DNA of 64,000 nucleotides from Tricholomella constricta. Taxonomy: Eukaryota; Basidiomycota; Agaricomycetes; Agaricales; Lyophyllaceae. The notes beneath the pieces were generated by a model. That model had not been told where the DNA came from, did no database searches, and saw only the letters and a program-made list of their open reading frames with translations. The translations under genes and the position numbers were made by a program. Every line of letters begins with the position of its first letter. Position 1 is the first letter of the stretch. Positions 3,065 to 22,884 of this stretch are shown here, one piece after another. The stretch is from assembly GCA_013368375.1 (NCBI GenBank), contig JAACJP010000011.1, forward strand, positions 496,001 through 560,000, given 5' to 3'.

Positions 3065-4728
3065 TGACCCCCCCTTTTGAATTGCAACGGCTCGGTGCGG
3101 GGTGACGGTGGTGAAGACGGCGGGGGATAGAGTGAAGATGCCACGGATGTGGCGCGCAGCATCAGGATTGTCGCGGTGGAACTTGCGAACCAGGTCGGGT
3201 GCGGCGACGTTCTCCCGGGGCTCCCACGAAGCTTCTTCATAGCCGTAGCCTTTCCACAAGATTTTGTACTGGAGTTTCTTGCGGAAGATGCGACTGTCGA
3301 GGATTTTGTGGATTTCGTAGTGGGGTTCGTCATCGATGATGTCTGGTGGCGGCGGAGGGTCGGACTGTTGACCTTCGATCGGGTCAGCGATGGCGGGGAC
3401 AAGCTTTATGACGTGGAAGACTGGGTGGATGCGCTTCATGGACTGAGGCAGCAGGAGGCGGTATGCGAGCGGGCCGACTCGCCTTTGCACGACGAAAGGG
3501 CCAAGGTAGCGATGCGATAATTTCTTAGACGGTCGGGTCGTGGAAATGTTGGTCGCGTCCAAGTACACCTTGTCGCCAGGCTGGTAGTCGGGCGTTGGGG
3601 CGTGTCGCTGGTTGTAATACCGCTCCATGTCGTCTTTGGCCTTTGAAAGCGCCACCTTGGCTTCCTCCTGTGCTTCCTTCATGCGCTCCACGAACTCGTC
3701 AGCCGACTCGTTCTTGGAAGCGCCCCGACGAGGCTCGAAGCCCATGCGCGGATGCCGACCAGTGTCGAGCAAGAAAGGGGTCTGCTGCGTCACCGAATGT
3801 ACATGGTTGTTGTAACTGAATTCGGCGTCGGGCAGAAGGTCCTCCCAGTCGTTCTGGCGCTCGTTGCAGAAGACCCGCAAGAACTGTTCCAGCTCCTGGT
3901 TGACGCGCTCAATCTGCCCGTCGGTCTGAGGGTGGTAGGCCGTCGAGGCCGACAGCTTGATACCCAGGAGCCGGTACAGTTCGCGCGTGAACTCGGCAAC
4001 AAAATGTGGACCTCGATCGGAGACGAATGCGTCGGGGAGACCGTGCAGCTTCCAGACATGGCGACGGTAGAGATTCGCAGCTCCCAAGGCCGAACAGGTC
4101 GTGTGCGACACGATGAAATGCGCGCGTTTTCCGACTGAGTCCACGACGTTCATGATCGCGTCATGGCCGTTGGACTCTGGGAGTTCGGTGATGAAGTCGA
4201 CCGATACGACATTCCATCGGCCTTCGGGAATTGGGAGCGGCTGCAGCTGTCCGACGGGGAGTTGGCGGCGGGGTTTGGTGCGCAAGCACATGTCGCAGGT
4301 GCTGGTGTATGAACCGATGAAGCGCGACATCTGGGGCCACCAGTAGTTGCGCGACACCAGCTCGAGCATCTTCCAGCGACCCGGGTGACCGGCGACCTTG
4401 GAGTCATGATGCTGCTCCACAATGCGTCGGCGGAGGTCAGGAACGTTCGGGACATAGATCCGTCCACGGAACGTGAGCAGACCACCTTCCTCCCCCCACT
4501 CGCCGAAGCGTAGGGAGCGGCCGGCGATCTTGGAAGCCTTGACCAGTTGTGCTGCCTTAGCGACTGCATCTTCCTGTGCGCCATCACGATTGCCTTTGCG
4601 AATCGCTTTTACCACATCGTCCTCCTCTCCGACCAGTACGAGACCCTCGATCGCGCGAATCGCGAAGAACTCGGGCTTGAGGAGCACAATGTCGGCATTG
4701 TCGCCGCTTCCATCGCCATGATCAGCGC
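3065..4728 (-). pseudogene. pol: D integrase and chromodomain
   Basis: The minus-strand frame covers the integrase zinc domain (HHDSKVAGHPGRW ... CDMC), the catalytic core (SVDFITELPES, VSDRGPHF, ERVNQELEQFL as the D,D,E residues) and a C-terminal chromodomain (ILDSRIFRKKLQYKILWKGY). The chromodomain would tether the complex to modified histones. This frame is out of phase with the RT part because 13 nt are missing near 4728. Compared with A, the pol stop TGA has become TCA, so translation would run into the LTR and stop near 2834. Confidence 0.88.
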
Positions 4729-7092
4729 GTCGGGTTTGCCCATGCTGCGTCCAGGACGGTGGTGGAGGGCAAAGTCGAAGTTGGCGAGGTAGAGCGACCA
4801 TTGGGCTTGCCGCCGATTGAGTTTCTTCGCGGTGAGGAAGTACTCAAGGTTCTTGTGGTCGGTCCAGATCTCCACCTTGTGCTTTGCGCCCTCAACGAAG
4901 TGCCGCCACTCCTCCAGAGACCGGATGATCGCTAGCATCTCCTTGTCATGGATCTCGTAGTTCCGCTCGACTGCGTTCAAGCTTTTCGAGTAGAACGCGA
5001 CCGGGTGCCACTTGCCATCGGACGGCGACTCTTGCGACAGGACCGCGCCCGTTGCGAAGTCGGACGAGTCGGCTTCGATGCGGTACGGTCGGTCGTCGTT
5101 GGGGAACATGAGGACTGGCCCCGACGTGATCGCAGACTTCAGACGGGCAAAGGCCGACTGCTCCGACTCTCCCCATCGCCAGGCGACGTCTTTGCCAGTC
5201 AAGTCGAACAGGGGTCTGGTGTGGTGTGAGAAGTCCTGAATGAACCGTCGGTAGAAATTGGTGAAGCCTAGGAACACTTGCACCTCTTTCTTGTTCTTCG
5301 GCGCCGGCCATTCCGACACTCCAGCGACCTTGACCGGATCCATTTCCGCTTGCCCGTGCGAGATGATCAACCCAAGATACTCGATCTTGGTCTGTTCGAA
5401 CTCGCATTTCTTGGGCTTTAAGAACAGCTTATGTTCGCGGAGTCGGTCCAGTACGAGTCGCGCGACCCGACGGTGTTCCTCAAGAGTCTTGGTGTAAATC
5501 AAGATGTCGTCAAGGTACACGCAAACGACACCCTCCGCAATCAGATCGCGGAAGATGTCATTCATCATGGTCTGGAATGTGGCGGGGCTATTCATGAGGC
5601 CGAAGAACATGACGAGCGGCTCGAAGAGACCGCGGTTCGTCCGAAACGCTGCCTTCCACTCATCGCCCTCCTTGATCCGAACGTTATTGTACCCCCATCG
5701 GACGTCCAGCTTGGTGAAGTACCGCGCGCCGCGGAGGCTGTTCACCAGTTCGCTAATGAAGGGCAGCGGGTACTGATTCTTCACCGTGAGCGCGTTGAGC
5801 GTCGGATAGTCCTGCACCAGTCGGAGCGACCCGTCCTTCTTCTTGATGAAGAACACCGGCGACGCCATAGGCGACTTCGACGGTTGGATCCGACCCGACT
5901 CGAGGTTCTCCTTGAGGAACACATCGAGTTCAACTTGCTCTGCGGGCAACAGAGGGTAGACCTTCGTGCCAGTCGGTGACGCGCCTGGTTCCAATTCGAT
6001 CGCATGGTCCCACTGCTTGCGATCGGGAAGCTCGTCAAACACAACCTTGGAGAAGACGTCCTCGAAGTCGTGGAGGTGGGTCGGAACGGCATCGCGGAAC
6101 GACTTAGGTGCAGAGTTCGCGGCGTGCGCCTCAGCGAGTTGCTGCGATGTCGTTTGACTGGCGCGAATGTGCATTTCGGTCGGAGGGGGGTGGATCGCAG
6201 TCGCAAAGATGCGATCGCCGTTCAGGAAGGTCTCCACCAGGAAGTCGTCCGACTCTGGATCGGGTTCCTCCATGATCGGGGTGTAGGGGAGGAACTCATC
6301 GGTGTCGGAGTCGTCTTCGACGTAGGGGCAGGTCGGGGCTCGCAGGTCGGGCTCGACTGTCGGGATTCCTTCTGCCCGACAAGCCCGAATGGCGGCTCGC
6401 AGCTTGGTGCGTGAACGACGCTCCTCCTTGACTTCAACCTTGCAGGTGTCGCAACGTGTCAGCGCTCGACTCATTTTCACCTTTCCCGTTGCCCAATCAA
6501 TGCCGGGGTTGTGGTCTCGGAGCCAGGTGAATCCGAGAATGAGATCCTGCTTCCCAATACCCGCGACCGCGAACAGAACGCGCTCGGAGTGACCGTCGTA
6601 ATGTAATACTGCGTCCACGACATATTCAATGGCGCCCGCCTCATTAGGGGTTCCGTCAACATTGTAGGCACGTGTCGGGCGATTCAGCCGTCGCGTCTTC
6701 AGCTTGTGCTTTTCAATGAAGGCAGTGTTGATGAAGCAAGCCGAAGCCCCGCTGTCAACGAGGGCAGCGAGCGAATGCGTCTCTTGGGTGTCGGTGGTCT
6801 CGAGCTCGACCTTGAGCGACAGGGATAAGGAGTCGGGGGAGGCGGCGATCACGAAGCGACGGGGCAGTCGCTTTTCCCAGCGCGGTAGTCCGCGACGCGA
6901 CGGTACAGTCGGCTCGGTCAGAGCGACCGAAGGAGATGGCGTTTGGTCAGGAGAGGATTGTACATCTTCGTCGATTGGTTCACCCGTAGAAGTAGTAGCA
7001 ATATTAAGTATATTGGGGTACTGTACAGATAGGGGGGCGAACCGATTACGACTAGACAACGGGGGCGCACTTTTCACCCGCTGTGCGACTAA
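4729..7092 (-). pseudogene. pol: D protease, RT and RNase H
   Basis: This part of pol contains the aspartic protease (ALVDSGASACF), the reverse transcriptase with catalytic YLDDILIYTK, and an RNase H domain (IEADSSDFATGAVLSQ, EIHDKEMLAII, VEIWTDHKNLEYFL). It would copy element RNA into DNA. The frame begins by -1 slippage at the gag stop (FLVAQRVKSAPP) with no nearby ATG. Relative to A, 13 nt are missing between two short direct repeats near 4728. This shifts the frame just after KPDAL and separates integrase from RT. Confidence 0.9.
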
Positions 7093-8305
7093 AAATCCTC
7101 TTCCGTGGCCAAGGCGATTGGGTCGGCCGACTCGGGAGTCGGGTCAGCTGGGATCGCATCCTTGCGCGCCAGTAGCTGCATGATCAGCTCATCCAGTTCC
7201 TCCGGCATGACGTGGCGCAGGTCAAAGCGCTTTGGGCAGTCGCGCCAGAAGTGCCCCGGCTGCTTGCATCGACGACAGGTGTCGTCCTGAACAGGACGTC
7301 CGCGGAGCCGGTCGATGTCCATAGGGACACCTGGGGGAAGAGACGGCGTCACGGGCATGCTGAGAAAGTGCGCCGGTGCCGACACACGAATGGGAGCGGT
7401 CGGTGGGGCAGTGGGTCGCCATCGGAGCATGGGCGCGACCACAGGCATCGGAATGGGGGCAGTCGGGCGACTTGCAGTCGGAACTGTCGGAGCCGACCGA
7501 CGGTGGAAGTCCTCCTCGGTCCTCATGATGAAGTCCTGGGAGCGGGCGATCACTAGCCAGTCCTCGATCTTGGAGTTGTCGGGCCGACCCGTGGTGATGC
7601 TCCCAAGCCTCCTTGAGAGCTTCGGGTCCATGCCCCGACGGAATTTGGGGACCAGATGGCGGCCGTCTGGGTAATCGGCCTTGATCCACAGCGCCTTGAA
7701 CGAGTCGATGTACTCGTCGATGGTGCGCCCATTCTGGAAGTACGCTGTCGACTCAAGGGTGAGCGCAGCGTCGGCGACTTCGTCGAACAGGAAGAACTCC
7801 TTTTCGAAGTTCGACGCGAAGTCCTTCCAGGTCGGGAATGCGCGCTTTACCAACCCATACTGAAAGACCCGACCGACGAAGTTGGCGGCGCGACCGTGTT
7901 GCATGTACGACAACACCCAGCTGATTCGGGCGTGGTCGTCGGCGAACTGTCCGACGCTCAGGGAGAAGTAGAGCTGGCACGCGTTCCAGAAGGCGCGGCC
8001 GCCCGAGCGCCGTCGTACACGGGAGGGGGCGACGGCCGAATGTGCGATCCCGATCGCGGAAGGGGAGGGGACGTCGGCAGGGGCTGCGCCGGCGTCGCGG
8101 GGGTCGTAGGTGCTGCTGGGGAGGCAGCGGAGGGGCTCCCCGAAACGATGGTATCTAAAAGAGCGGCGATGCGGTCCATGGTGGCCGAGTTGGTGGTGTT
8201 GGATTGGGAGAGAGCCGACATTGCGGTTTCAAGGCTTGCCAGTCGTTCCTCTGGCGTGAGCGCAGCAGGAGACGGAGGCGTGTCGAATTCACCGAAGTCG
8301 GACAT
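7089..8305 (-). pseudogene. gag: D gag, frameshifted
   Basis: Gag starts MSDFGEFDTPP at 8305 and ends EEDF-TAG at 7089. The N-terminal Ser/Pro-rich part (8305 to about 8005) and the capsid plus CCHC knuckle part (CRRCKQPGHFWRDC) lie in different frames. Alignment with A shows a 4-nt loss near 8003-8007, where A reads GARSGGRAFWNAC. The product would be cut off before the capsid domain. Confidence 0.88.
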
Positions 8306-8416
8306 CTCGAGACGGGACTGGGCGACGATCGGAGCGGGCGTGCGTTGGACGGGTTGCGTGTAGCAGACACGTGTTTCGGCGCGGAGGCTGATCGGTCGGC
8401 TTCGTCGGGTCTCCGG

Positions 8417-8429
8417 TTTACACTATTCT
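8417..8429 (-). promoter_or_regulatory. Self-priming primer-binding site of D
   Basis: On the minus strand AGAATAGTGTAAA begins 2 nt after the 5' LTR. It is complementary over 13 bases to TTTACACTATTCT in the LTR (8548-8560), which lies about 31 bp after TATATAG (8586-8592). Two bases differ from A's site and both are compensated in D's own LTR. Confidence 0.6.
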
Positions 8430-8431
8430 GC

Positions 8432-8935
8432 TGTTAGGGCAACCCTTACGGTGGAGCGTGATCACACTGGCAAGGGGGAATCCGAAGTTATATTGATGTA
8501 CAGTAACGAAGGTAAGTAAGGCTTACCTGGCAAGGGGGAATCCGAAGAGAATAGTGTAAAGGATTCCCAAATGCCAGGGGGCCAACTATATACGAGTGTA
8601 GGACGTGAGGGCCGGTCCTCCAGAGTGTACTGTACATGTAATACTAACGAATGGTGTGCGGCGCGTGTATGGACACGTTCCCGACGCTGTCCGATCCTTG
8701 TGGCTCAGGGTACGGGCACGAGGCGGGGCAGCCGACGTCGGGATGTCGGGTGGTCGGGATCAGCGTCGGGCGCGTGCAGGGAGTGAGGGGAAGCGACAGA
8801 AAGTGAGTAAGTATGTACACCGACGCTTGGGTCGGAGCGTCGGGTCGGGATCGCGATCGGTCGGTCGGGGGCGAGCGCGTGAGTCGGGGAACGATCTGTG
8901 AGCGTCGGAGAGCGTGAACGAGAGTTCCCCTGACA
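8432..8935 (-). repeat. 5' LTR of D
   Basis: The 504-bp LTR has a TATATAG motif at 8586-8592 and the predicted RNA 5' end at about 8560. It also carries the same duplicated GATTCCCC...GCCAG motif with donor and acceptor signals as in A. It abuts the RNase H region of E at 8936. Confidence 0.9.
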
Positions 8936-10566
8936 GATTCTCTTTCACTCAAAGGAAGTGATCCATAACGGGCTGGGCAGCGGCGGTCTTGTTCATCAAG
9001 TTGCGAGAGAATAAATCCTACGGCCATGTAGCTAGTATCAACTGATAGTATTACTGGCTTATCAGAGGTATAGTCAATTGAACGTAGTGCGGGTGCAGAT
9101 GAGACAATTTTCTTGAGGGTTTTGAAAGCTTCTTGACAACGATCGGTCCATAGAAATTCTGCATCCTTTCAGATCAACTCAGTTAAGGGTCTAACAAGTT
9201 GCGAATAATCCTTGATCCAAATACGAACTGTTCTGCAAAGGCCTAGAAAACCTCTAACTTCTTTTACTGTTGTTAGGACGGGCCAATTAAAAATCTTTTG
9301 AACACGGTCATCTGCTGGAAGTCGTCCTTCTGAATTACATTTTTGTCCAATAATGAGTACTTCTTGGCGGCAGATTTGCATTTTACTTGGAGAGAATCGG
9401 GCTCCTACACACTTGATTCGATGCATAATGCGGTGGACATCATGTGCATGTTCCCATATAAAACGGCGGATACCTGAATTTTCTTTTAATGTCTCTGGTT
9501 TTCCATCCGAGTCAAGATACTGAGATTTGGGTCCTTTAATAGGGAGATCATCGATGAATACATTAGCTTTATGAGGCATCTCATCTTGTAATACAAAAGC
9601 CATGCAATTTTGAAATTCAGCTGGAGAATTGGTATATCCCATTGGGAGAGATGTATGGCGGAGGAGTCCTAGAGGGGTATAGAAGGCAGTCATATCACGA
9701 GAAATCGGATCGAGTCTTCTGGCATCAAATCCCCAGAAGAGGTCAAAGACAGTATAACATTGGTGTTCTCCATAGGCTTCTACAAAATCATCTAGAATTG
9801 GAAGTTGGCCAGCATCACGGATTGTTACTTCATTCAAAGGTTGTAAATTATGGACAAGGCGAAGAGAACCATTCTTCTTCTTTACACAAAACCATTGATG
9901 ATGGTAGGAGGATTGACTGGGTTCATAAACACCTGCATCGATCTTGCTTCGAAGGAGCTTGATAACGTCTTCTCGAATACCAGGTGGAATAGGTATATTT
10001 CTAGTTTCCCATGGGGTGTGTGGAATGGTAGGCATAATATAATCGGAGAAGTATTCTTGGCTAAGGGAACCACAGTCTTTTTCTTCAAAGGCCAGAGTTT
10101 CTTGATTTAGTAGAAGAATATGCTTGAATAATTTTTCTTCTTCTGGCCATAAGAAATCATCGGGGTTTAAATCGATACTTGATAGACGATCTTCTGTAAG
10201 GTGTTCTGATGCTGAAAAGTTTGGTGGATGTGGAGATAATGGGGGAAGGCTATCAAGTGGATTTTGGGGAACACGGCGGTGAACTCTAGCTTCTTCAGGA
10301 AAGGTGCCCGAAACAGGGTGTACTTTCTGATCTACGCGCTTGTACATGGTGAATGACTGAGGATTTTCAAGCTTGCTGCTAAGTTCATTAGTGGGAAATA
10401 TAAAGAGATCATCATCTGACATAGATGAATCATTATACGGTAGCAGGAAATTACTAGTAGCAGTAGCTGAATCTATCGCATTTATCGTGTCTGGTTTGAA
10501 ATCTGAGGTATTCAATGGTGTGCTCTTAGCAACAACACCAAGAAGAGTGCCTGTCATTTTCATCAC
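8936..10566 (-). pseudogene. pol: E reverse transcriptase and start of RNase H
   Basis: The minus-strand frame encodes an RT domain: WFCVKKKNGSLRLVHNLQPLN, the LPMGYTNSPAEFQ block and the catalytic VFIDDLPIKGP. It continues to KEVRGFLGLCR and LTELI. A TGA at 9169 (CGA in a working copy would be one transition away) stops it, but the frame stays open into RNase H (VILSVDTSYMAVGFILSQLD) until D's LTR interrupts it at 8935. The remaining RNase H and integrase are absent from the window. The start at 10566 overlaps the preceding frame by 41 nt in another phase, so a frameshift joins them. Confidence 0.8.
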
Positions 10567-13500
10567 TTGAACTATAAAATTGGGTAGGTGGGTAGTATTC
10601 GAAATCTTGACTTGGATGCTGGGGTGGCTGTAATTGAAAATGATGAGACTCGAATCCGAATTCGGTGACAGGTGTCAGAACTTCCGAAACATTCGCGAGG
10701 AACGATTGCATTACACTGTCGGTTATATTATTGGAGTTCAGGGGCGATGACGGGGGTGTTGGTGGTTGTATAAATTCTGGAGGAGATAGTCTTCCTTCAT
10801 TGATTTGAGAATCAGGATTATCGGGGGCAGGATTAATTTGACTTGAAGTGGTGAGCGTAATAATGGGATTGGAATTTGATGGCGCCAGCAATGTAGTGTT
10901 CTGTTCTAATGTTAAACCTTCCTTTGTGACATTGAATTCATGGCTCAAGGTGGATACATATTGCATGGTATCAGGTTCGATAACCGAGTTTGTAGATATA
11001 CGCAAGGGAGTGTGAGGTTGCGAATAGGACTCATTCTGGATATTTTCAATAATTGACCTTTGTTGTAGCGCTTGAGTATGATATGGTGGTTGGTTTTCTA
11101 AGTTGGGATCGAGTTTCTTCCGTTTCAGGACACGTTGAAGAGAGGATATCAAGGAGTGATTTAATGAGGCACTGGATTCACTGTGTGGATAACTAAGTGT
11201 CTCAGACTGCTTGGTATTACAAGAAATAGGGTCCTCATTTCCTATAGACATGGCTTCACCAAAATTCTTATCTACGGCGTGGACGCTTGGCTGGCAATCA
11301 TACTGGTTAATAGCAATGGATGCTATGGGAGAAGGAAGCTTGCCTGACTTGTTTCCATCTAATTCACAGGCTGGTCTTTTGCGTGACGAGTAATCAAAGA
11401 CAATCGCAACGGTGGATGAGGCAGACAAGGACTGTGGGAAATTGTTACCCGAATTGGCTGTAACCCAGGAATCTGGCGCAGGGTCGACTTTGACATGAAC
11501 AGCAGACATCGTCGGGGACTCGAAGGGGTGAGAGAATGTAGAAATATCATTGCTGAGAGGTTCTAACGTTCCTGATTCGACGACGGGATCTAGAAAAGGT
11601 GTAAAGTCCAATGAGTCAGCTTCAGGAGCATTCATGGATGCGGGGAAGGCGAAAAACTCTTGACAATCTGTGGAATTGTGATGAAGCAGGGTAGATATAG
11701 AAGAGTGGCGGGTAGGCGGGGCATCGGGTATACTGGAGAGAGGAACCGAGAGGTGATCGGAATTCAAATGTCTACTCGTACCTGAAGAGGCTGATCGAGA
11801 AGCAAAGGGGTAGTTACCCTTCTCTTTAATTATCGAATCATGGAGTTCATACTCCGCGCATGGACTGTTGGCGAGTCTGATAAGTGTTTCGGCTGCCTCG
11901 AGATCTTCGTTCACTATTAAAGGGGCTTGGGGCTGAGGAGAATTTGGCGGCATAGACGTAACACGAGGGGAGAATAGCAGTGGTGCTTCAATACTCTGAG
12001 CAACAAAATAGTCGATATTTGATAGTGTCGCTTTCAATGCAAGATCTGAATTATTAAGTGCTGCTAAGCTGTCTGGCATTGTTGATACAGATGGAGTGTG
12101 CGCACCAAGAGCGCTCAATAACATTGGTTCAGCTATACAATAGTTGCGTTCAGGATTCTGAGGATACGGAGAGTCAGAAGAAGAGTTCAATGAAGAGGTG
12201 TTTGGAGCGTATTGCTGGCCGTGGTCAATGGAAAAGACTGGAGGTGAAATAAGCTTACTGTGCTTTAGCAAATTAGTCCACGAGGTTGTGACTTCCAACG
12301 TGGGTGGAGATTTGACTTCATCAAGTTCCTTGCTTTCTGTACCATGACTTAGCACAGATTCTAACGTGTTTATGACGGGCAAGGAATTTTCTTTCAATGT
12401 TTCATGAGATGAAAAAGAAAATTGATTCCGACTATCTAAATCCAATCTACAACCTTGCACATACTGACTAGCTGGTAGTACTTTGGGTGGCTCAACGTCT
12501 TCGTTTAGCTGTTCAAAGTCCAGGTCAGCAGCAGCAAGAGAGTTCAAGGATAAAAGAAGTTTACCAGAGTCAAATGTGCTTGGACTTGAGGATGGAGGTG
12601 TCTTACGTTTGCGTGAAGATGTCTGGAGAACCTCAGGTTCCTTGGAGGTTGTGGCTTGAGAAGGCATAGTACTGCTGCTAAACGTGAGATGTGAACAGTC
12701 AGAGAATGAATGATCATGTGCGTGCAGGCAGAGGAATGGGTTGGAATCAGCATAAGTCTTGCATTCGGTAGTGGTTGGGATTGGCGATGAGGTGTGGGGA
12801 CGAGATAATTTTGGAGATACCGGAATAGGTGAATTAGAATGTTGAGAAGGTGTTACGGGTATGGGCGACTCACTGGATAGAAGACTAACAGAGGGGATGT
12901 TCGAAGCTGGAATGAGGGCGGGCTTTAGCTCCTTTGCTGATGAATTTTGAACCATAATATCATGCAATCGAGAATGTTCTGTGTTGATATTCTTAAGGGT
13001 TGGAGGCAGTTGGGCATGATCACGGACCTGTTCGAGAGCAAGAAGGGCTGGTGCTGGAGGGCGACGTGGGAGTGCACGGGTTAGCGCAATCTGGGCTCGG
13101 GCTTTGCTGCCACCTTCAGAAATAAAGAGGGGTGTACCTAGAGTGTTAAGTTCATGTTCAAGGCGCTCAACATATCTCCGACGAGCTTCACCAGGGCTGG
13201 GAGATCGAGAAGGGGGCACTGAGAAATCTGTCATGTCGTCATCAGCATTATCAAAGTCATATGTGCTTCTCCAGTCAGCAGAGAGATCGGAATAGTTATC
13301 ATCGGAGTAGTAGGGACGTTCAGTACTTGACGGACCATTGTTATACCAATCAGTATGTTCCAGAGGACGATCTTTCTTTGGTCGGACGCGTGCTTCAAGA
13401 CGATTGATTTTAGCAATCAGTGACTCAGCGTGCGGTGATAGTTTTTGAGAACGAGGACTACGAGGATCATTTTCACTTGAGATAATCACTGGGGCAGGTA

Positions 13501-14077
13501 AGTTTAATTCGGGTGGTGGAAGAGAAGGATTGAGAGTGTGAGAGCTTGTACCAATGTTTGCGAGAACGGGCGTCGAAAGTATTGGGGACTCAGTCAGTTC
13601 TTGTGGGCCTTCAAACCATGATGGAATAGCATTCCGCCAGACTTCGTCATAGTAGAGGCCATGTGGATATGTTCCAACGTCAGCGGATACAAGTGGTTCA
13701 TAAGTGTCATAAGGTCGTACGATGGTGATGTGCATTTCGCATGAGTGTGTGGCTGGCTGAGGAGTTCCGGGACTAAACATTTGAAGGGAGGCGTCAAATA
13801 GAACTAGGTTTTCAACTTGATATCCTTGAACGATTCGGGGATCGAAACGGACACCCATTAATGAAGAGATAAGGACGGGAGAATGGTGTTCGCCATTCTC
13901 AAAAACATGATGAGCAAAGCCTTGCATTTGCCTAATCTGAGGAATGTACATGTCTGTATGGCTGCCTAGGGACTACGTGGTAGGCTGGAAGAGGAAGGGG
14001 AACTCGATTCTCGGGTATAAGGGTATATTGATCTGGGGTGTCACGATGAGTTACAGGGGTCGGAACGAGATCAGGAT
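10526..14077 (-). pseudogene. E polyprotein linker, second part
   Basis: A 1,141-residue open frame runs from 13951 to 10526, in the same phase as the preceding part. The two are separated by 126 nt with three stops. Those 126 nt contain a candidate 53-nt intron (GTCAGT...CCCCAG), but removing it alone does not restore phase. The first ~90 residues (FENGEHHSPVLISS ... VENLVLFDASLQMF) resemble a block in the first part (about 16690-17030). The rest is Ser/Pro-rich and low in recognisable structure. It lies between protease and RT, where Ty3-type elements normally have only a short connector. I do not recognise a function. Confidence 0.55.
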
Positions 14078-17000
14078 TTACTGACCTGGATGCAGGGTTA
14101 CGGATGACTGGCGTTCAGCACGAAGGACCATGATGGGGGAGGGATAGTCGTAGTGAATACATTCAGTAGCAAAACCCTGTTGCATATACGGCCGAGTAGA
14201 GTCGAAAATGCGGAAGTAAGGGCAATGGTACCTGAAGTAATGACGGGTGCCTCGACCATCGTCGACGGTGTTGAGATAGAGGCAAAATTCGGGCGTCAAG
14301 AAGTCTAAGCAGGTAGCGCGAATACCGTCGTCGATGAGGGATCGAGCTTCACGGAAGCTGTTGATAACCGGATTTACTAAATTAAAAGCTACGGCATCGT
14401 CAGCGTGTTCGTAGGGCGAAATGAAATGAGTGTCGAAGTATCCGTTGGGTCCTGGCTTCCCGTGAGGTCGGCCTTCCCAGGTAGCGGGGCTGTCTTCGGA
14501 GGTGTGACGATCGCGGGGGTACCTGGAGTCGTACGTCGAATACTTGGTGTAAGTTGTTGGCCTTGACGACGGAAGGAGGCTGTCTGCTTGTTCCCTTTGC
14601 CAGAGTTCGAGTCGGATGGCTTGGCGTTGAGGGGTCTCGGGGAAGCCTTTCCAGTCAGCTGAGATAACACGGGTGGTTCGAATAATGTTGGCGGCATTGA
14701 GGAAGGGAACGGCGAAGTCGGATTTGGAGTCGATAGATTCGGGGTCCGGAGTAGAAGGAGAGTTGTCGGTATCTAGCAGGGGATGGTTATTGGCCTCGCC
14801 TTCAAAGTCGAACATGAAATGGTGGCAGACTACTGGGGTCTTGTGCTTGGCGCACCACGCTGGGTGGCCAGGAGGGGGAGTGGATTTATCGATGGGTACG
14901 CGAATTGGGGTGTCTATACCGGCTTGAAAGGTGTCGAAGCTTCGTGCGTCGACAAATCCGTACTCATCACGGTCTTGAGTTACTCGTTGGTAAATCAAAT
15001 TCATGTCGTATTTGAAAGCAGGGCGGCTACGGGCAAGAACGAGTTCAGAGGGTGGAACGGGGGATGGAGGGGAAGCTGCACGGTCCGGAATCATGTTGAG
15101 AAGTTCGTTTACTGCATCATCCCAAGTGTCAGCATGCTGAGGGTCATCAAACACGTTCAGGTGCTCACCAATGGCATGCCCAAGTGAATCTTGAGGGAGA
15201 TCACGAGCTGCAAACCGTGGGGATACATCCATCTCGTCGCTGGAGGAGTCGGGTGTCATGAGGTCGGGAGTTGAGTCGCTGTGATCGTCCTCGTCACTAG
15301 GTTTCGCAAGGAAAGATGCTAGGAACTCTGGAGAGGCGTTAGATTCATTGTGCTCATCGTGGAGATTCGATAAAATTGACTTACACCTTAGTTGTTCGTC
15401 AACTTCGGGGTTCGTCACATTGGAATGGTCTTGGGGATGGCTGGCAGGTAGAGGGGTCGGCAGAGGAGTAGGTAATGGTACCGGATTGAGTCTTGGGGCA
15501 GGGACAGTGAGAGGCGCTGCTAGGAGTTCTGGAATCGAAGGTAGCGGGGCAAGCAGAAGGTGCTGGGATGGCGTGCGAGGTCGGAAGGGGAGAAGTAGTA
15601 CAGCGGGGTTGATCGTCGTTATCAAAGGTGATAGGTTGTTGGAAGAAGGGATGGGAGCACTCGTGCCAGTCTCGTTGGCATCCGTCGTGCTCAGAGGGTC
15701 GGGGTATCGTAATTCCCGAAGTTCGAGGGGTACGTCCTTGTCGGCAAGCCAATCGTTGGCTGTCGTTCCATCGGGTGCAGCTGAACTCATCATTTCCTGC
15801 GAAAAAACTGAAGAGGTATTGTCGTTGTCTTGAGTGAAAGATTCAGAGTGACTGGGGAAGTTAAATGTACGGGAGGAACAGTGGTCGATTACATTCGGCC
15901 GGTCTACGGTAGTGGAAGCGATATACAAGGAGTTGGGGTGGTCTGAAGGGAGCGGCTTAGGATTACGGGGAGGAGGTGAGATGATGACGGAGGTAATGGA
16001 GTCGTCTGCGGGCTTGAGCTTACGGCCTGAAGAAAGAGAATCAGGCAGGTCAGCTAGAGGCGAAAATGGATTCTGGAGAGACGCACGAATGGGTGGCAGA
16101 GGAAGAGGAGACCTTCCATCACGGCGATGGCGATTCCTGCGCTTGGCGCGTTGGGAACGAGCAGTCGAGCCAGTGTCGACGCTGGCTGCAGCAGTCGAAG
16201 AGGAGAGGGAATGCGTACCAATGGTCCTCTTCCTTCTACGTCTCGTCTTCGTCCAACCTGTCTCTTCCTCACTGCTCTCCATATCCTCATCTTCTTCCTT
16301 CTCTATCCCATCATCCCGCGTGTCGGTCGAACGTTCGAAGGGCGCACTAGCTTGGGTAGTGGCAGTCGGGGCACGATAAACGCGAACAGGCTCGACTTCA
16401 GGAAAGAGAGAGACGTCGAAGGGACGGAGCGGCCCAGCCGCAAGAGCGAGTACAGAGGCAGAGGGTTGAGGAGATGAGGGAGAGGAAGTCCGAATGATAG
16501 AGTTGATGAATTCCTGAGTGATCGGAAATTCGTCACGCGGTTGCGGATGATCGGTGCGAGTTCCTTGCGAAATCTGAGAATACAATTGGAACGGGGAAGG
16601 AGTACGGTTATCGGCTTCGAAAGTAGAAGGGGTATCGGTGACAATAGATAAATCCGGGGTGCGTCTAACAGGAGGAGGAGGAGAGGCATTGTACATGACG
16701 TTCGGCATGGCAAGGTCCTGGTCAACAAAGGTCAGGTACACATTACCAGATCGGACAGCAGGGGTTCCTGACCCATTGGGAAACGAGATCATGGACACAT
16801 CGAACAAGGCCATGTTCTCAACGAGGCCTCCGTCAAGGGGGCCAGGATCAATACGGACCAAACGGGGTGCAGCTATGATGACCGAGTGAGTTCCTTCAAT
16901 ACCGTGAGAAATCCTGTCCCATATCATGGACAAGACGTCGAGCTGGGCCCGTGTCTGCATGACCGTCATGTTGGGGACAATAGAAATGGCGGGGGGAGGC

Positions 17001-18793
17001 GGTACCACATCATTGGGAGGAAGTGCAAAGAGATAAAGCGGAGGAGGTGAGATTGAGGGCATTGAGATAGCTGAGTTAGGTTCTTCTGTTTGTGTATATT
17101 GAAATGTGGGGATATTGGTAGAGTTGAGAGCCTCATGTTCAAACTTATATACTGTTCTTTCCTGTGCAGTACAGATTTGGAGAACAATGAACCTATGTAA
17201 CCGTATGGCAAAGCCATCTGAAATCCTGAATTCCTCCATTGTCCTCTTAATCCAGTCTGATGAGAGACCATAGACTTGTGTTGACTTCAATACCTTGACG
17301 CGTTGCGCGCATGCACGTACTTGGTGGAGATCTCTGATCTGCTTAGCAAGATTTCCTAAACTGGATCCGATCTGTGAGATTGATTTAATGCTGTGCAGTT
17401 CATCAATTTTGGGAAACTGATCGAGAGATTTGATGTCATTCTGAGTCAGTTGTCGGGCTATAGTTGTATTGATTACTGGTGACTTATGATATGGGATGAC
17501 TTCCTGTGATAGATGTGAGTCATTAAACCTTGAATCAATTTTCAAGCTGTCAGATTCTAAAGTTTCAAAGTCTTCTGGAAACAGATTGATGAATTGTCGC
17601 TCTGTAGAAGTGTCAATAGGCGTGGGAATAATGTCTGAAATTTTCGATTCAGAGGGATTGAGAATCGAGTTCTGCACATATAATCCTGATAATTGCTCCC
17701 AAAATTCAGAAGAAAATTCTAAAGCTTCAATAGGGTCTTCACAAGCAATGGGGCTTTTCTGAGTGACTATTCCTACTGTAAAAGGATTAACTTGAGGAGG
17801 CTGCTGTAGATTGAAAGGATAATCCGGTCGTGGTGCACGATCTTTCACTAAGAGTTCGAGAGAAATGTTAGAGTTCTTCCGATCCTTGAAGAGGAGATAA
17901 GTTCCATCAATTCTTTCATCGATAGAGACCAAATTCTGACGCTGCCATGGACATCCGAGCAATAAATCGAAAGGCATGTCATCTCCGACGTATAAGTTAG
18001 CGATAGTTTTGACACTTCCACACCTTAATACAATGTCTGAGATATGTCCCTGGAGATTTCCTGCTCCACCATTGGCATCGCTGATGACTACCTTACGTTG
18101 AGGATCTATAGGTGTTTCTGCTAAGTCACGGACAAAATCTCGGTTAATAACATTTAATTCTGATCTGGTATCAATGATGGCCAAGACTCGCTTATCTTCT
18201 AACCGAAGGGGAATACGGATCAAACTCGTAGAGTCTCGTGAGTTTGCGGCATTTGCGGCACTTGCGGCATCTGCGGCATTTGCGGCACTTGCGGCATCTG
18301 CGGCATTTGCGGCAAATGCGGCAATGTGTTCCACTGCCGGCGGCTTGGAATTAAGGTTTTTACATTTCATCAGATCAACCAACTGATCGGAGACTTCCCG
18401 AGAAGAAGCAAGGACCTCACCGAGTCGTAACGTAAGGGGTGTGTTCAAGATCTGGGTGACTACTTGTTTTTCATCAACCTGAGCTGAAATCTGAGATTGC
18501 CTAACAGGTGCACGTGTTTTGGATTGTCCTTGTTGTTGACTTGATTGCTGTGGGTTGGTTCGAGGCGGATTGGCATCAACCATTACAACATCGTCAGTTG
18601 TCCGTTGAACTACACGTGGTTGCCTTACGTCTACAGGGGTTGGAGTGATGTCTTCCAGAGGAATTCTTGGTTCTTTGGGTGCTTTCGAAGGGCCTACATT
18701 CCGTGTTCTAAATCCATCAGCTGGTGGATCACGCTGAGGTTCTTTGCCTTTTCTGATAGGTCGAGTTACTTTATTGATTGCGTCTTTACGAGC
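14078..18793 (-). CDS. E protease and linker, first part
   Basis: This frame is open from just after the gag stop (18793) to a TAA at 14078; its first ATG is at 18583. An aspartic-protease region (IPLRLEDKRVLAIIDTRSELNVINRDF ... FDLLLGCPWQRQNLV in overlapping blocks) is at about residues 130-225 of the ATG form. The catalytic triplet reads DTR instead of DTG; GGA to AGA would explain it and should inactivate the enzyme. An Ala-rich tandem repeat precedes it. A block at 16690-17030 (SHGIEGTHSVIIAAPRLVR ... VENMALFDVSMISF) recurs in the next part. An acidic/basic stretch (EEDEDMESSEEE then RRRRKR) and a globular-looking C-terminus (about 14080-14700) follow. The function beyond protease is unknown. 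Confidence 0.6.
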   Translation of the reverse strand, partial: ARKDAINKVTRPIRKGKEPQRDPPADGFRTRNVGPSKAPKEPRIPLEDITPTPVDVRQPRVVQRTTDDVVMVDANPPRTNPQQSSQQQGQSKTRAPVRQSQISAQVDEKQVVTQILNTPLTLRLGEVLASSREVSDQLVDLMKCKNLNSKPPAVEHIAAFAANAADAASAANAADAASAANAANSRDSTSLIRIPLRLEDKRVLAIIDTRSELNVINRDFVRDLAETPIDPQRKVVISDANGGAGNLQGHISDIVLRCGSVKTIANLYVGDDMPFDLLLGCPWQRQNLVSIDERIDGTYLLFKDRKNSNISLELLVKDRAPRPDYPFNLQQPPQVNPFTVGIVTQKSPIACEDPIEALEFSSEFWEQLSGLYVQNSILNPSESKISDIIPTPIDTSTERQFINLFPEDFETLESDSLKIDSRFNDSHLSQEVIPYHKSPVINTTIARQLTQNDIKSLDQFPKIDELHSIKSISQIGSSLGNLAKQIRDLHQVRACAQRVKVLKSTQVYGLSSDWIKRTMEEFRISDGFAIRLHRFIVLQICTAQERTVYKFEHEALNSTNIPTFQYTQTEEPNSAISMPSISPPPLYLFALPPNDVVPPPPAISIVPNMTVMQTRAQLDVLSMIWDRISHGIEGTHSVIIAAPRLVRIDPGPLDGGLVENMALFDVSMISFPNGSGTPAVRSGNVYLTFVDQDLAMPNVMYNASPPPPVRRTPDLSIVTDTPSTFEADNRTPSPFQLYSQISQGTRTDHPQPRDEFPITQEFINSIIRTSSPSSPQPSASVLALAAGPLRPFDVSLFPEVEPVRVYRAPTATTQASAPFERSTDTRDDGIEKEEDEDMESSEEETGWTKTRRRRKRTIGTHSLSSSTAAASVDTGSTARSQRAKRRNRHRRDGRSPLPLPPIRASLQNPFSPLADLPDSLSSGRKLKPADDSITSVIISPPPRNPKPLPSDHPNSLYIASTTVDRPNVIDHCSSRTFNFPSHSESFTQDNDNTSSVFSQEMMSSAAPDGTTANDWLADKDVPLELRELRYPDPLSTTDANETGTSAPIPSSNNLSPLITTINPAVLLLPFRPRTPSQHLLLAPLPSIPELLAAPLTVPAPRLNPVPLPTPLPTPLPASHPQDHSNVTNPEVDEQLRCKSILSNLHDEHNESNASPEFLASFLAKPSDEDDHSDSTPDLMTPDSSSDEMDVSPRFAARDLPQDSLGHAIGEHLNVFDDPQHADTWDDAVNELLNMIPDRAASPPSPVPPSELVLARSRPAFKYDMNLIYQRVTQDRDEYGFVDARSFDTFQAGIDTPIRVPIDKSTPPPGHPAWCAKHKTPVVCHHFMFDFEGEANNHPLLDTDNSPSTPDPESIDSKSDFAVPFLNAANIIRTTRVISADWKGFPETPQRQAIRLELWQREQADSLLPSSRPTTYTKYSTYDSRYPRDRHTSEDSPATWEGRPHGKPGPNGYFDTHFISPYEHADDAVAFNLVNPVINSFREARSLIDDGIRATCLDFLTPEFCLYLNTVDDGRGTRHYFRYHCPYFRIFDSTRPYMQQGFATECIHYDYPSPIMVLRAERQSSVTLHPGQ
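18238..18326 (-). repeat. Ala-rich tandem repeat in E polyprotein
   Basis: A 27-bp period (three 9-mers GCGGCATTT, GCGGCACTT, GCGGCATCT in plus-strand view) repeats about three times. It encodes AANAADAAS-type repeats just before the protease. It is likely a slippage-prone spacer. Confidence 0.75.
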
Positions 18794-20533
18794 TCAGGTA
18801 ATCATGCGTGGTTCTTGTTCAGCAGCAAATACAACTGCCTCAGGTTCTTCATCATCTTCTTGATCTGAGTTATAATAGTCTGAGGAATCCTTAAAAGAAT
18901 CAGTTACTTCATACGGTTCAACAGTTAGTAGGTGGGATGCAAGTTGAGTACTCAGGTGACGGTCAACTGCCTGGATAATTGTTTCATTGCCATTACGCTG
19001 TACCAAGGATCCATCCTTAAAGGTAATCTTTCCGAAATCATCTCTCTTCAGCTTACCTCTCTGAACGCGATCCTGAAGCGCTACACAACTTCTCATACTA
19101 TGGCCTTCTTTTCCACAACCAAAGCATATCAAAGGTCCTCTTGGAGGAAGGTTGTATCCGTTAGGATTCTGAGACATGTGCGGAGGAGGTTGTCTTTGGA
19201 AGTTATTACCAGATGATTGTGCTGGGTAGGGCTCACGGATGGGTGCTCTTTGCTGAGGTGGCTGATTCATGAAGGGCTGTCGCATACGGTTGTTGGAGTT
19301 ATCATGCTGTGGGATGTTTAACCTTGGAGGAGGCAAGCACTGAGTTATCATGTTGTCTAACTTGTAAGCTCTGTAATAAAGAACACCATACTTGGGATCA
19401 TCAATAGATAACTCTGCAAGTTGGTCAATTAAGTCATCAACTTCACTCTTCGGAATCTTCTTAGGAGTTTCTGATATCCTGGCCTTGGGTAACTTCTTGC
19501 TTGGCTTCTGCTTCCGTCTGTATTTCTTGATGACTTCTTCATCTTCTGATTCAGATTCAGTATCAGATGAAGAGTAGTGATATCTCTTATTCTTCTTGCT
19601 CTTGGACTTCTTGTATTTTTTCTTGAGGTCTTCGTCTGATTCGGAATCTTCGTTTTCATCAGAGCTGTAATCAGAATCATCAGTCCTTCCTTTCCTTGGT
19701 TTAGCTAGATGATAGTCAAAGCGATTGCGCTCAAACATCCTTTCTACAGCTTCAACTACAGCCGCAATTGGAATAGCCTTCTTAAGAGATAAACTGGGGT
19801 TAGTAGCAATAACACGTAATTCGATATTCTGTCTGAGGTCTTTATGAATTCCTTCCCAGAAGTAACAGGCTTGTTCCTCTTCACCAATCATCCCGTCCTT
19901 GAGAAGTCTTCCACCAATGGTAACAAACTCTCGTTCGTACTTCTTCCATCTGGTGAGAGTTGTGATCTCCCTTGAGGACCAAGAGTTGACTAGGCATTTG
20001 AGGTTAGAGATGTTGTTCTCACTATCCTGTCTATCTGCATCATAATGCCAAAGCAGTTTCTTCTCGAGGGCTTTCCAATCCTGATCATGGTAGCTCTGGA
20101 GACCTTGGATGAGCTGTGTAACATTATATGAGCAATAGTCAAGGATACGGTCACATTTCTCTGGGTCTGGGACATTGTATAGCTTGCAAAGATTGTTGAA
20201 TCGACTGAGGAATCTTTGTATATCCTTGTAGTTTCCTTTGAAGATTTCTGGGGCATCCTTTGCCCGAGGTGAAGGCATTTCCGATGGGGTTCGGTTGGAG
20301 TGAGACATTGAAGATGGCGTTGATGGTAGTACCGATGGTAGTGGAGAGGATGGGGTAGTAGGTGTTAACGATGTAGTAGGAGAGTTGCTGGTAGTAGTTG
20401 GAGTAGTGCTTAATATTCCTTGAGGTAAAGGTAATATAGGAGAGTCTTGCTGAATAGATGTGATACTAGATTCAGATAATGCTCGACGAGTTGTAGTGTG
20501 TAGAGAGGGACTAGATTGACCAGATGAGGGCAT
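18794..20533 (-). CDS. gag: Gag of element E
   Basis: The 579-residue Gag has a Ser/Thr/Pro-rich N-terminus. A capsid-like region (about residues 85-290: EIFKGNYKDIQRFLSRFNN, WEGIHKDLRQNIELRV) follows. Next come a Lys/Glu/Asp-rich stretch with KKYKKSKSKKNK and a CCHC knuckle CFGCGKEGHSMRSC near residue 470. It would package element RNA. The stop is TGA at 18794-18796, and the following pol is in the same frame with no intervening stop for 1,570 codons. Either the TGA is read through or it arose from CGA. A primer-binding site lies 40 nt upstream. Confidence 0.85.
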   Translation of the reverse strand: MPSSGQSSPSLHTTTRRALSESSITSIQQDSPILPLPQGILSTTPTTTSNSPTTSLTPTTPSSPLPSVLPSTPSSMSHSNRTPSEMPSPRAKDAPEIFKGNYKDIQRFLSRFNNLCKLYNVPDPEKCDRILDYCSYNVTQLIQGLQSYHDQDWKALEKKLLWHYDADRQDSENNISNLKCLVNSWSSREITTLTRWKKYEREFVTIGGRLLKDGMIGEEEQACYFWEGIHKDLRQNIELRVIATNPSLSLKKAIPIAAVVEAVERMFERNRFDYHLAKPRKGRTDDSDYSSDENEDSESDEDLKKKYKKSKSKKNKRYHYSSSDTESESEDEEVIKKYRRKQKPSKKLPKARISETPKKIPKSEVDDLIDQLAELSIDDPKYGVLYYRAYKLDNMITQCLPPPRLNIPQHDNSNNRMRQPFMNQPPQQRAPIREPYPAQSSGNNFQRQPPPHMSQNPNGYNLPPRGPLICFGCGKEGHSMRSCVALQDRVQRGKLKRDDFGKITFKDGSLVQRNGNETIIQAVDRHLSTQLASHLLTVEPYEVTDSFKDSSDYYNSDQEDDEEPEAVVFAAEQEPRMIT

Positions 20534-20572: not shown

Positions 20573-20591
20573 CCCCTCGCGGTGGGCTCCA
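20573..20591 (-). promoter_or_regulatory. tRNA-type primer-binding site of E
   Basis: The minus strand reads TGGAGCCCACCGCGAGGGG four nt after the LTR end. It begins TGG as expected for pairing with a tRNA 3'-CCA end. The specific tRNA was not determined. Element G has a related site (TGGAGCCCA) at 23996. Confidence 0.55.
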
Positions 20592-20934
20592 ATTATGTCA
20601 GTTCACACCAAGCTTTATGAAAAAGTTCAGTGTCCAGGCTCAACCGGAAGCTATTATATGCAACGGGAAGGTCACCTGGTGTTCGTTGGGGAATCTTTCC
20701 AGATATGATTACCTATGAGTGGGTTAGTTTATATCTGGTCTAGAGATGGGTGGTTAGTCAATTGTCTTTGTTAGAGAAATATATCTCAACAATATTTAAG
20801 ACAATGAGCAGCTGTGGAGTAGGTCGTTAGTGACAGTGACGAAGGTCGTAAATAGTCGTGATAAATGTCGTAGATGGTTGTGATAGATGTCGTGAGTGTG
20901 TTGTTGAAGATACTACGTGTATATGATAACTTGG

Positions 20935-21130
20935 TATACAATGACTTGATATATGATAACTTGATTAGACTTGACTTCACTTGTCTTGACTGACTTGTGT
21001 ATATAGAATGACTTGAATAACCATGACTTGACTTGACTTGACTTGACTGGCAGATGTATACGATAACTTGAATAGACTTGACGATAACTTGACTGACTTG
21101 CAGATATATACGATGACTTGAATGGACTTG
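20935..21130. repeat. TTGAC-type simple repeat in the E LTR
   Basis: Imperfect runs of TTGAC/ATAACTTGA recur here, for example at 21028-21050. They give spurious short minus-strand frames of Lys/Ser/Gln repeats. Confidence 0.7.
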
Positions 21131-21245
21131 ACGATGACGAAGGCTTCCTGATGACAAAAGATAGAATATAAGTCAGTAACAAATGTAATCAACTAACCGA
21201 TAGCTGATTAATACGAGAAACAATGACAAAATAAATCTAACAAGG

Positions 21246-21630
21246 TTGCTCACTGTCTCTTACAGTGACGAACAAGCTTGAGAGATACGGACGATGACGA
21301 ACACTAGTCTGAATCACACTCTTCTGGGCACTGCTAGGCTCGAGTAGATATATACTAGACTTGACGAAGAATACGGAGTTTGCTCACTGTTGTGGACAGT
21401 GATGAACAAACTAACTATCAGCTTGCTCACTGTTTCGTACAGTGACAGACAAGTTTAACAGACAAGAACGACAGAGAATACTAGCTCCTTCGCAACTCTT
21501 CTGGGCACTGCCAGGCTCGAGCAGGAATTCCACTAGACTGAAACTGACTTTCTGGTTTGCTCACTGTTGGCGACAGTGACGAACAAACCAAACTACCAAG
21601 TTGCTCACTGTATCTTACAGTGACGAACAA
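21246..21630. repeat. Five-hairpin array in the E LTR
   Basis: TCACTGT, a 4-6 nt spacer, then ACAGTGA occurs at about 21250, 21384, 21426, 21561 and 21604. Each is flanked by TTGC and GACGAACAA-like sequence. Between hairpins, a CTTCTGGGCACTGC[TC]AGGCTCGAG block appears twice (about 21320 and 21499). Spacers vary while the stems are conserved. It lies downstream of the TATA motif on the minus strand, so it would be in the transcribed leader. Confidence 0.7.
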
Positions 21631-21905
21631 CCTTTGGTAGATGGAAACAACAGTGTAAGGGGATGCACCGTGCGCCCACTCCTATCTGTTGCTTAGTCTC
21701 TTGCTTCCTGTCATCTGCCCCCATGGCCCCCGTCTTAGACATGCTTGCTGACCGCTCCACTGTTCTTACGCCCCTTTCGTAGTTATTATCCCACACCGAC
21801 ATCACTACTTAGATCCCTATCAGTCAGGGGTGAGTACAGGCTGTATATTGGATGAAACCACTGTTATACCACACCAGACTGGGGGGAATACTCAATTTCC
21901 TCTCC

Positions 21906-21914
21906 CTTATATAC
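21906..21914 (-). promoter_or_regulatory. TATA motif of the E LTR
   Basis: The minus strand reads GTATATAAG. It is oriented toward E's gag and lies between the upstream TGAGTCA array and the downstream hairpin array. Confidence 0.45.
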
Positions 21915-21993
21915 ATTTTGGCTACCTATGCTTACTAAGCATTGATGCAGTACAATGAATCATGTAGAGTCATATATTGTAAGTGAAGGAGTC

Positions 21994-22502
21994 AGAATGA
22001 GTCAGGGTGAGTCAGAATGTGTATTTATAGAAAGTAATGAGTCAGGATGAGTTAGAGCATATTTATAGAAATATAATGAGTCAGATGTTATAAATAAACA
22101 GCCTTGACTGTAAATGAGTCATCCTGATGCAATCTATGAGTCAGATTACATGTGTAGAGTTAAATATAGAATGGTAATGAGTCAAGTGTTATAATGACTG
22201 TAAATGAGTCATCCAGATGCAATCCATAAGTCAGATCACATGTGGAGGGTTTAATTATAGAACACTTGAGTCAGATTGTCAGAATGGAGTCATATAGACA
22301 TGAGTCATGTTGGGATATGGATTATATTTAGCACACTTGAGTCAGAATGTCAGATTTGGGTCATGTAGGCAGATGAGTCATGTGGGAGTGTGAGTCATGC
22401 TGTCATATGAGTCATGCTTACATAAGTGTCATGTGGAGCATGTGGACTATCCTGACATATGAGTCATGAAGGTGCAATGAGTCATGAGCTGCATATGAGT
22501 CA
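21994..22502 (+). promoter_or_regulatory. Array of TGAGTCA motifs in E U3
   Basis: I count 17 exact TGAGTCA heptamers, all in the same orientation, plus GGAGTCA and CGAGTCA variants, in about 510 bp. TGAGTCA is the binding core of fungal Gcn4/AP-1-type bZIP activators. The array lies upstream of E's TATA motif in minus-strand sense. It could act as an enhancer or could be a slippage-derived repeat. Confidence 0.55.
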
Positions 22503-22671
22503 TAATGACGAAACGAGTCATATGGATCCAATCAGTCAAGTTCAGGAGTTATGACTAAGCTGAGGTCACCTGACTTGTCCTTAGGATTACAGAATCATCA
22601 GAATAATGGAGTTAACCATTGCGCCATGTGGGCTGCTTAGTAATCTCTCATGATTATAAAGTTTTGCACCA

Positions 22672-22745
22672 GGCCGGGATTGAAGCAAGGTCAAAAGTGC
22701 CAAAGCAGTAGGTGCAATTTAACCACTGAGCCATTGGGCTGTTTG
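22672..22745 (-). other. tRNA-like relic (box A and box B)
   Basis: On the minus strand TGGCTCAGTGG (box A-like) is followed 47 nt later by GCTTCAATCCC (box B-like) and then CTGGTGCAAA. Further box-like pieces flank it (near 22635 and 22785). The stems do not pair well enough for a functional tRNA. A tRNA-derived SINE piece inside the LTR is possible. Confidence 0.25.
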
Positions 22746-22884
22746 TCACAAGTTAGACTTTAAACTGTTTATAAGGCAGGGATTGAACTGGTGTTATAAA
22801 ATATAAGACATTTCTTTAGAGTGATCAATTCGACTGAGTGGGCTTTTTATGTCACTTTGTCTGAAACACTTTTCAGGCGTGACA

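Follow-up and report, generated by a model that had tools for sequence, protein, structure and literature searches.

A giant Ty3-type retrotransposon lineage in Tricholomella constricta with a selected coding insert between protease and reverse transcriptase

Available excerpts of the literature place the additional open reading frames (ORFs) of plant retroelements mostly after pol (PMC7264820) and describe an RNA demethylase ORF in an element from an orchid (PMC9289625). For basidiomycetes, the accessible text of a Ty3/gypsy survey reports elements from ~4.4 to more than 13 kb and already documents the capture of a dUTPase at the junction of protease (PR) and reverse transcriptase (RT) (PMC2864245). 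Here, we analyzed a 64,000-nt stretch of Tricholomella constricta DNA (the window, to which all window coordinates refer), which holds a decayed, truncated copy of a long terminal repeat (LTR) retrotransposon that we term element E. The pol order of RT, RNase H and integrase, together with the LTRs, identifies E as a Ty3-type (Metaviridae) element. A longer copy, C4:1.99M (C4:1983667-2004475), spans ~20.8 kb with LTRs of ~2.15 kb. Between PR and RT, E carries a long insert, divided into X1 and X2, that is under purifying selection at the protein level.

A selected coding insert between protease and reverse transcriptase

The distance from PR to RT is ~7.75 kb in E (the protease end being approximate) and 261-306 bp in four related families of the same genome that have no insert (C25, C4:287k, C53 and C26). 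Subtracting ~0.3 kb leaves an insert of about 7.45 kb, or about 2,500 codons. An earlier note, made from the window alone, had proposed such an insert where Ty3-type elements have a short connector, and the comparison bears this out. Its frame positions were likewise recovered: the window copy has two long minus-strand open frames in the same phase, at 14078-18583 (1,501 aa) and 10526-13951 (1,141 aa), besides frames for gag (18794-20533) and RT (9169-10566). Within them lie X1 (14081-17840, left limit approximate), a C-terminal extension of the Gag-PR frame (ORF1), and X2 (10529-13951), the open frame ORF2. These and all features of E given below are on the minus strand, except for its cut end.

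To place the window copy among its relatives, we searched the 44.1-Mb assembly with the 1,501-aa frame. The 31 matches comprised 24 rows in 11 places and seven rows covering the protease region only. The places are C11 (the window), C96, C43, C3, C70, three on C4, and the more distant C5, C21 and C29. C96 (L036, L037) is a 21-kb contig, 99.8-99.9% identical to window positions 8155-28165, either an unmerged allele or a recent duplicate; it was left out as an independent copy. ORF1 is unbroken in C4:1.99M (2,199 codons) and C3 (2,219 codons), has one stop in C43 and several frame breaks in C70.

These copies overturned the note's view of a single polyprotein with two same-phase frames. In the less decayed ones, ORF1 (Gag-PR-X1, ~2,200 codons), ORF2 (X2, ~1,140-1,180 codons) and ORF3 (RT-RNase H-integrase) are separate frames. 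Four copies (L009, L011, L015, L019) retain the whole end of ORF1, and in three of them ORF2 lies in a different frame from ORF1, so that the shared phase in the window copy is attributable to decay; in the fourth, L011, ORF2 entered the ORF1 frame through its own 1-nt deletion at the junction, with two stops between. ORF2 of E is open beyond what chance would give, with no stops in its own frame where the two alternative sense frames have 48 and 99, and the corresponding frame is open over 1,139-1,344 codons in C4:1.99M, C3 and C43, 982 in C70 and 945 in C5.

Each of the four insert-related lineages, E, C5 and the broken C21 and C29, holds at least part of the insert. The pol of C5 is 75% identical to that of E, those of the four insert-less families 48-50%, and many more 44-45% (41 of 1,078 candidates scored; relationships are taken from pairwise identities). 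Because the next relatives lack the insert, it is most simply read as a gain on the branch leading to E and C5. Relatives without the insert, which the note had named as grounds for doubting it, do exist, but as separate families. In three of these four, PR and pol matches have open frames of equal length, so that PR and pol probably form one frame.

To measure constraint, we estimated omega (dN/dS, Nei-Gojobori) for five ORF1 pairs, given here in the order L009 versus C3, the window copy, C43 and C4:371k, and C3 versus the window copy. Values were 0.099, 0.119, 0.090, 0.211 (5 changes only) and 0.126 for the C-terminal domain of X1, and 0.197, 0.105, 0.173, 0.355 (2 changes only) and 0.131 for its repeat unit A, with intervals below 1 in the well-sampled pairs. 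The linker between them gave 0.304, 0.389, 0.264, 0.280 and 0.317, with the interval below 1 in all five pairs, and the stretch right after the protease 0.147, 0.349, 0.147, undefined and 0.332. As yardsticks, gag gave 0.137, 0.273, 0.152, 0.385 and 0.240, the protease 0, 0.114, undefined, undefined and 0.154, and pol within the family 0.12-0.18. For ORF2, comparing the window copy with five copies yielded 0.35-0.41 over the whole frame, 0.11-0.19 in repeat unit B, 0.37-0.65 in codons 95-400 (some intervals include 1) and 0.25-0.43 in codons 800-1120. The low values are conservative, because decay after insertion drives omega towards 1; comparisons with C5 were left unused, since dS is saturated in most regions.

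The architecture of the insert agreed well with what the note had read from the window. The two blocks that it found alike match each other (BLASTP E 3e-11, 33% identity over 84 aligned residues), and their refined limits define unit A in X1 (16715-17047) and unit B in X2 (13706-13939). E has one such unit of ~95 aa in each of ORF1 and ORF2, and C5 has one in ORF1 and two in ORF2; four positions are invariant across nine aligned rows. Each block is indeed followed by a Ser/Pro-rich stretch (Ser/Pro/Thr fractions of 0.36 and 0.33). In X1, this linker (15134-16714) includes the acidic tract (16262-16303) and the basic tract (about 16208-16240), and it leads to a distinct, unrecognised C-terminal domain (14081-15133, containing CAKHKTPVVCHH) of ~430 aa, 45% identical between E and C5, with conserved His, Cys, Trp and Asp residues. 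Per 100 residues, identity between the ORF1 proteins of E and C5 is 49-69% up to residue 900, 22-43% for residues 901-1800, 40-41% for 1801-2000 and 51-57% in the final 200. Neither E nor C5 has a transmembrane-like segment in the insert: the best 19-residue hydropathy is 1.27 in ORF1 and 0.87 in ORF2 of E, and 1.37 in ORF1 and 1.2 in ORF2 (first 734 codons) of C5, the usual threshold being ~1.6.

In keeping with the note, which recognised no known retroelement domain there, no Pfam family matched the insert (window frames up to E 1, domain pieces up to E 10); the same scans returned no dUTPase. No PDB sequence matched the two domains, with best values of E 0.31 for the C-terminal domain and 2.3 for the other. 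Among ~5.8 billion proteins, ORF1 recovered solely the host's own P0001 and ORF2 nothing, where the candidates sharing most words were scored (7,983 and 7,982, plus 1,958 in a further ORF1 search), targets were limited to 0.55-1.75 times the query length, and low-complexity stretches may hide relatives. The insert offers two protein families, those of the repeat unit and the C-terminal domain, without a match in the databases searched. An origin from a host gene was considered and rejected: among the best candidates, which alone were scored, the genomic hits (21 for repeat B, 12 for the C5 C-terminal piece and 20 for the second C5 repeat, B2) all fall within places of the element lineage. In the literature within reach, which mostly excludes subscription journals, we recognised no account of this element.

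Junctions, mosaic divergence and mobility

Compared with the other copies, the flanks of the window copy are mostly 91-100% identical, and the region ~13,700-17,000 mostly ~80-96%. Within this island, 100-nt steps range from 36% (where lengths differ) to 100%, and the closest copy changes between steps; a further step, at 18300, shows 70% identity over an alanine-rich repeat. Between L009 and the window copy, dS rises from 0.049 in gag to 0.363 in the C-terminal domain. Such a mosaic is the pattern expected from recombination between diverged lineages, and omega gives no sign of positive selection in the island.

At the ORF1-ORF2 junction (13941-14108), by contrast, the copies are nearly invariant: the window copy differs from five others at two of 163-164 sites, compared with 34-43 differences in 410 sites on the upstream side and 21-24 in 218 on the downstream side. 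The downstream contrast rests on the window copy, because the other copies are nearly identical there too (0-5 of 218). The patch contains an intron-like stretch of ~50-65 nt, GTCAGT...CCCCAG in E and GTAAGT...CACCAG in C5, confined to this one junction, and C3 has a 1-nt deletion within the patch. Alternatively, a short recombination tract could account for the invariance. A scan for splice pairs that keep the frame, its result excluding the C5 ORF2-ORF3 junction, gave weak sites alone, and RNA structure at the junction was not beyond chance (z 0.57). Programmed frameshifting was rejected as a common mechanism, since the frame steps at ORF1-ORF2 and ORF2-ORF3 are +1 in E and -1 at both in C5. 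The ORF2-ORF3 junction reads TGCTAAGAG in E (10520-10534) and TGTTAAGAG in C5; both share TGYTAAGAG at the ORF2 stop (at the start of L014 in C5), though ORF3 stands in a different frame relation to ORF2 in each.

A deletion of ~260 nt at the end of ORF1 has taken the end of the C-terminal domain from the window copy, which also has a 1-nt difference further on. C4:371k misses ~254 nt by alignment gap columns, and C4:348k shows the same BLAST pattern as the window copy. The missing segment was rejected as a spliced intron, its visible ends not being GT...AG.

The C4:1.99M copy is flanked by unequal tetramers (CCGT and ACGC), and its ORF2 is followed by ORF3 of 1,137 codons. Pfam matches in ORF3 of locus L010, from the C4 copy, are RVT_1 (197-377), RNase H-like (442-571), H2C2 (717-772) and rve (789-879), the last at 31.7 bits, slightly below its cut-off of 32.6. 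In C3 and C43, pol is gone through one common deletion (L012 and L016 against L010:1510-6305). The LTRs of C43 nevertheless differ at only about 3 of 2,150 sites, with ACGC on both flanks; because of these nearly identical LTRs and matching flanks despite the lost pol, C43 is probably a young non-autonomous derivative that moved in trans. Integration beside tRNA genes was rejected, since ARAGORN (bacterial code) found none of these in the window or in 14 loci.

Possible roles of X1 and X2

We propose, with a probability of roughly one half, that a giant Ty3-type lineage gained an accessory insert of ~2,500 codons whose products, X1 and X2, act as regulatory or scaffold proteins. ORF1 would yield Gag-PR-X1 at the level of Gag, with no change of frame, and the element's protease may then free X1; X2 and Pol would require an additional step, be it splicing, reinitiation or a frameshift. 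Both proteins would consist of small folded units separated by disordered linkers that are rich in Ser/Pro and carry acidic and basic tracts, and might interact with nuclear or chromatin proteins of the host, or with one another, thereby steering expression, nuclear entry or target choice. We infer a non-envelope, host-interaction or regulatory module because the insert has no recognised enzyme, capsid or transmembrane features and the element has a bZIP-like neighbouring ORF. Several results weigh against this proposal. No homologue of known function was found for X1 or X2 in the databases searched. Structure prediction, which the note had suggested, succeeded in part: the C-terminal domain model is unusable (pLDDT, the predicted local distance difference test, 30), and the repeat unit was modelled at 68 with a helix of low confidence. 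Codons 400-800 of ORF2, with omega of 0.60-0.88 and intervals including 1, are near neutral.

The repeat model weakly resembles TFIIA beta-barrels, a likeness of predicted fold only. Ranks 1-11 in VIA-align are seven entries titled TFIIA and four RNA polymerase II pre-initiation complexes, in which we take the matched chain to be TFIIA from its numbering; rows for LptF follow closely (4.3 and 4.2). Foldseek returned no match at E <= 0.001 among 707 PDB and 1,154 BFVD matches up to E 10, and single hhalign comparisons of the repeat with pieces of the host's own TFIIA (E 0.84 and 0.39) gave no sequence support, a further point against the proposed role. With complex retroviruses and their accessory genes as an analogy, one could imagine a "complex" element with its own transcription kit, in which TFIIA-like units would engage the host pre-initiation machinery alongside a bZIP-like factor and a small membrane protein. 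We consider this a long shot; were it true, the island at ~13,700-17,000 would mark a conflict front with the host or with rival copies.

Other explanations assign the insert a different function. X1 could serve as a further structural protein, joined to Gag and carried in the particle, with the repeats as oligomerisation modules. It is in frame with Gag-PR and hence would be made at the level of Gag, and the young C3 and C43 copies that lost pol still carry Gag-PR-X1 and ORF2; however, no capsid- or matrix-like match emerged from Pfam or PDB sequences, the Ser/Pro-rich linkers are long, and other Ty3-type families of this genome manage without the insert, so that we regard this reading as unlikely, though worth taking seriously. 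That the ~430-aa C-terminal domain is catalytic but too divergent to recognise, which would speak against a regulatory or scaffold role, we consider distinctly unlikely: the strong constraint (omega 0.09-0.13), the conserved residues noted above and the precedent, in the accessible survey text, of a dUTPase between PR and RT (PMC2864245) fit an enzyme, but the domain has no Pfam match up to E 10, and its best PDB sequence hit is at E 0.31. An envelope-like gene at an unusual place would suit a large, variable, recombining region, but we give this next to no weight, and the 19-residue hydropathy led us to reject envelope identity: the best value is 1.37, and a small transmembrane ORF lies elsewhere in the element.

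The remaining explanations deny the insert a coding role of its own. Were it mainly spliced out to join PR to RT, as in Ogre elements, its frames would be by-products or products of unspliced RNA. The intron-like sequences of E and C5 in the nearly invariant patch would fit, yet they sit at one junction and are far from spanning the insert, the scan found weak splice sites alone, and protein-level constraint runs across the insert, making this account highly improbable. Equally, Ser/Pro-rich stretches easily remain open, which would suit accidental open sequence or a decayed non-coding insert. The note had named dN/dS near 1 as the sign of this; neither ORF1 nor ORF2 as a whole shows it, although parts of ORF2, codons 400-800 among them, have intervals that include 1. 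Together with the colinear protein conservation with C5 and with intervals that stay below 1 in all five pairs for the linker, and in the well-sampled pairs for repeat A and the C-terminal domain, this contradicts the idea for X1 and repeat B and is less clear for parts of ORF2; for the insert as a whole, it is barely credible.

The rest of the element and its described counterparts

The sole LTR of E remaining in the window (20596-22884, TGTCACG...TGACA) matches the LTRs of the C4 copy. Next to it lies a putative primer-binding site, TGGAGCCCACCGCGAGG (20575-20592), which begins with TGG and has an equivalent after the LTR-like end of C5. Gag (18797-20533) has a CCHC knuckle-like motif (zf-CCHC, E 0.21), and a DUF4100-like stretch (18359-18520; PF13352, E 3.5e-5, 24.5 bits, below the cut-off of 27.9) precedes the aspartic protease (17948-18214). 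The latter gives weak Pfam matches below cut-off (Asp_protease_2 E 0.026, gag-asp_proteas E 0.066). The window copy is judged decayed because its protease active site reads DTR instead of the DTG of the L009 and L011 copies, and because a stop codon splits gag from the remainder of ORF1. The start of ORF3 encodes RT (9172-10566; RVT_1 E 1.6e-12), and E breaks off at 8935, the point at which an LTR-like repeat belonging to another element starts; the missing part was not found elsewhere in the window. In that separate element (2560-8935), two LTR-like repeats of ~97% identity (2560-3064 and 8431-8935) enclose gag-pol frames at 4609-7916.

Three additional ORFs lie 3' of pol (L010, L018, L020), in the same order in C5; the window copy ends before them. 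In the C4 copy, they are a bZIP-like ORF4 (L010:5173-5619), an ORF without assigned family (5824-6360; 179 aa, with 45% identity to its C5 equivalent) and an ORF for a small protein that has a single transmembrane-like segment (6696-7040; 30% identity). Their C5 counterparts are at L014:4201-4704, 4971-5450 and 6155-6529. The bZIP-like ORF of E scores 24.5 bits against bZIP_2 (cut-off 22.3) over 28 of 54 profile positions, and that of C5 stays below cut-off (bZIP_2 17.6; bZIP_1 19.9 versus 27.6). At C9:412868-412978, 37 residues within a 306-aa open frame are 65% identical to the element's bZIP-like ORF; this frame is a possible source gene or related element.

Among described elements, and as far as the accessible text of each source goes, the basidiomycete Ty3/gypsy element PosPlaTy3-5 resembles E in having an extra coding domain at the PR-RT junction, but its insert is a dUTPase, a known enzyme, whereas that of E comprises two unrecognised domains in two frames (PMC2864245). 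The plant Ogre/Tat elements are likewise giant and Ty3-type, with Gag-PR apart from RT-RNase H-integrase and long LTRs; in Ogre, however, an intron separates Gag-PR from RT, where the separating region of E is coding and constrained, and Ogre/Tat elements have a second, archaeal-type RNase H (PMC6317226). Pfam returned one RNase H region in ORF3 of E, and a divergent copy may lie in the insert. Burro of planarians is also a giant Ty3-type element with extra domains, a dUTPase-like one between PR and RT among them; it exceeds 30 kb, and its MATH/TRAF-C, BCL-2, SUMO-like and Env-like domains were not returned by Pfam for the pieces of E (PMC6431247). LTR elements of bdelloid rotifers have a dUTPase between PR and RT and, like E, extra ORFs after pol, which encode esterase, exonuclease and Env-like proteins rather than the bZIP-like, unassigned and transmembrane products of the E lineage (PMC5408684). 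Related families that lack the insert provide a natural comparison within one genome, and E offers a route to studying the function of accessory genes in the retroelement of a filamentous fungus. Its ~2,500 selected codons of unrecognised domains, together with the ORFs after pol, go well beyond the fungal Ty3-type elements described in the accessible text.

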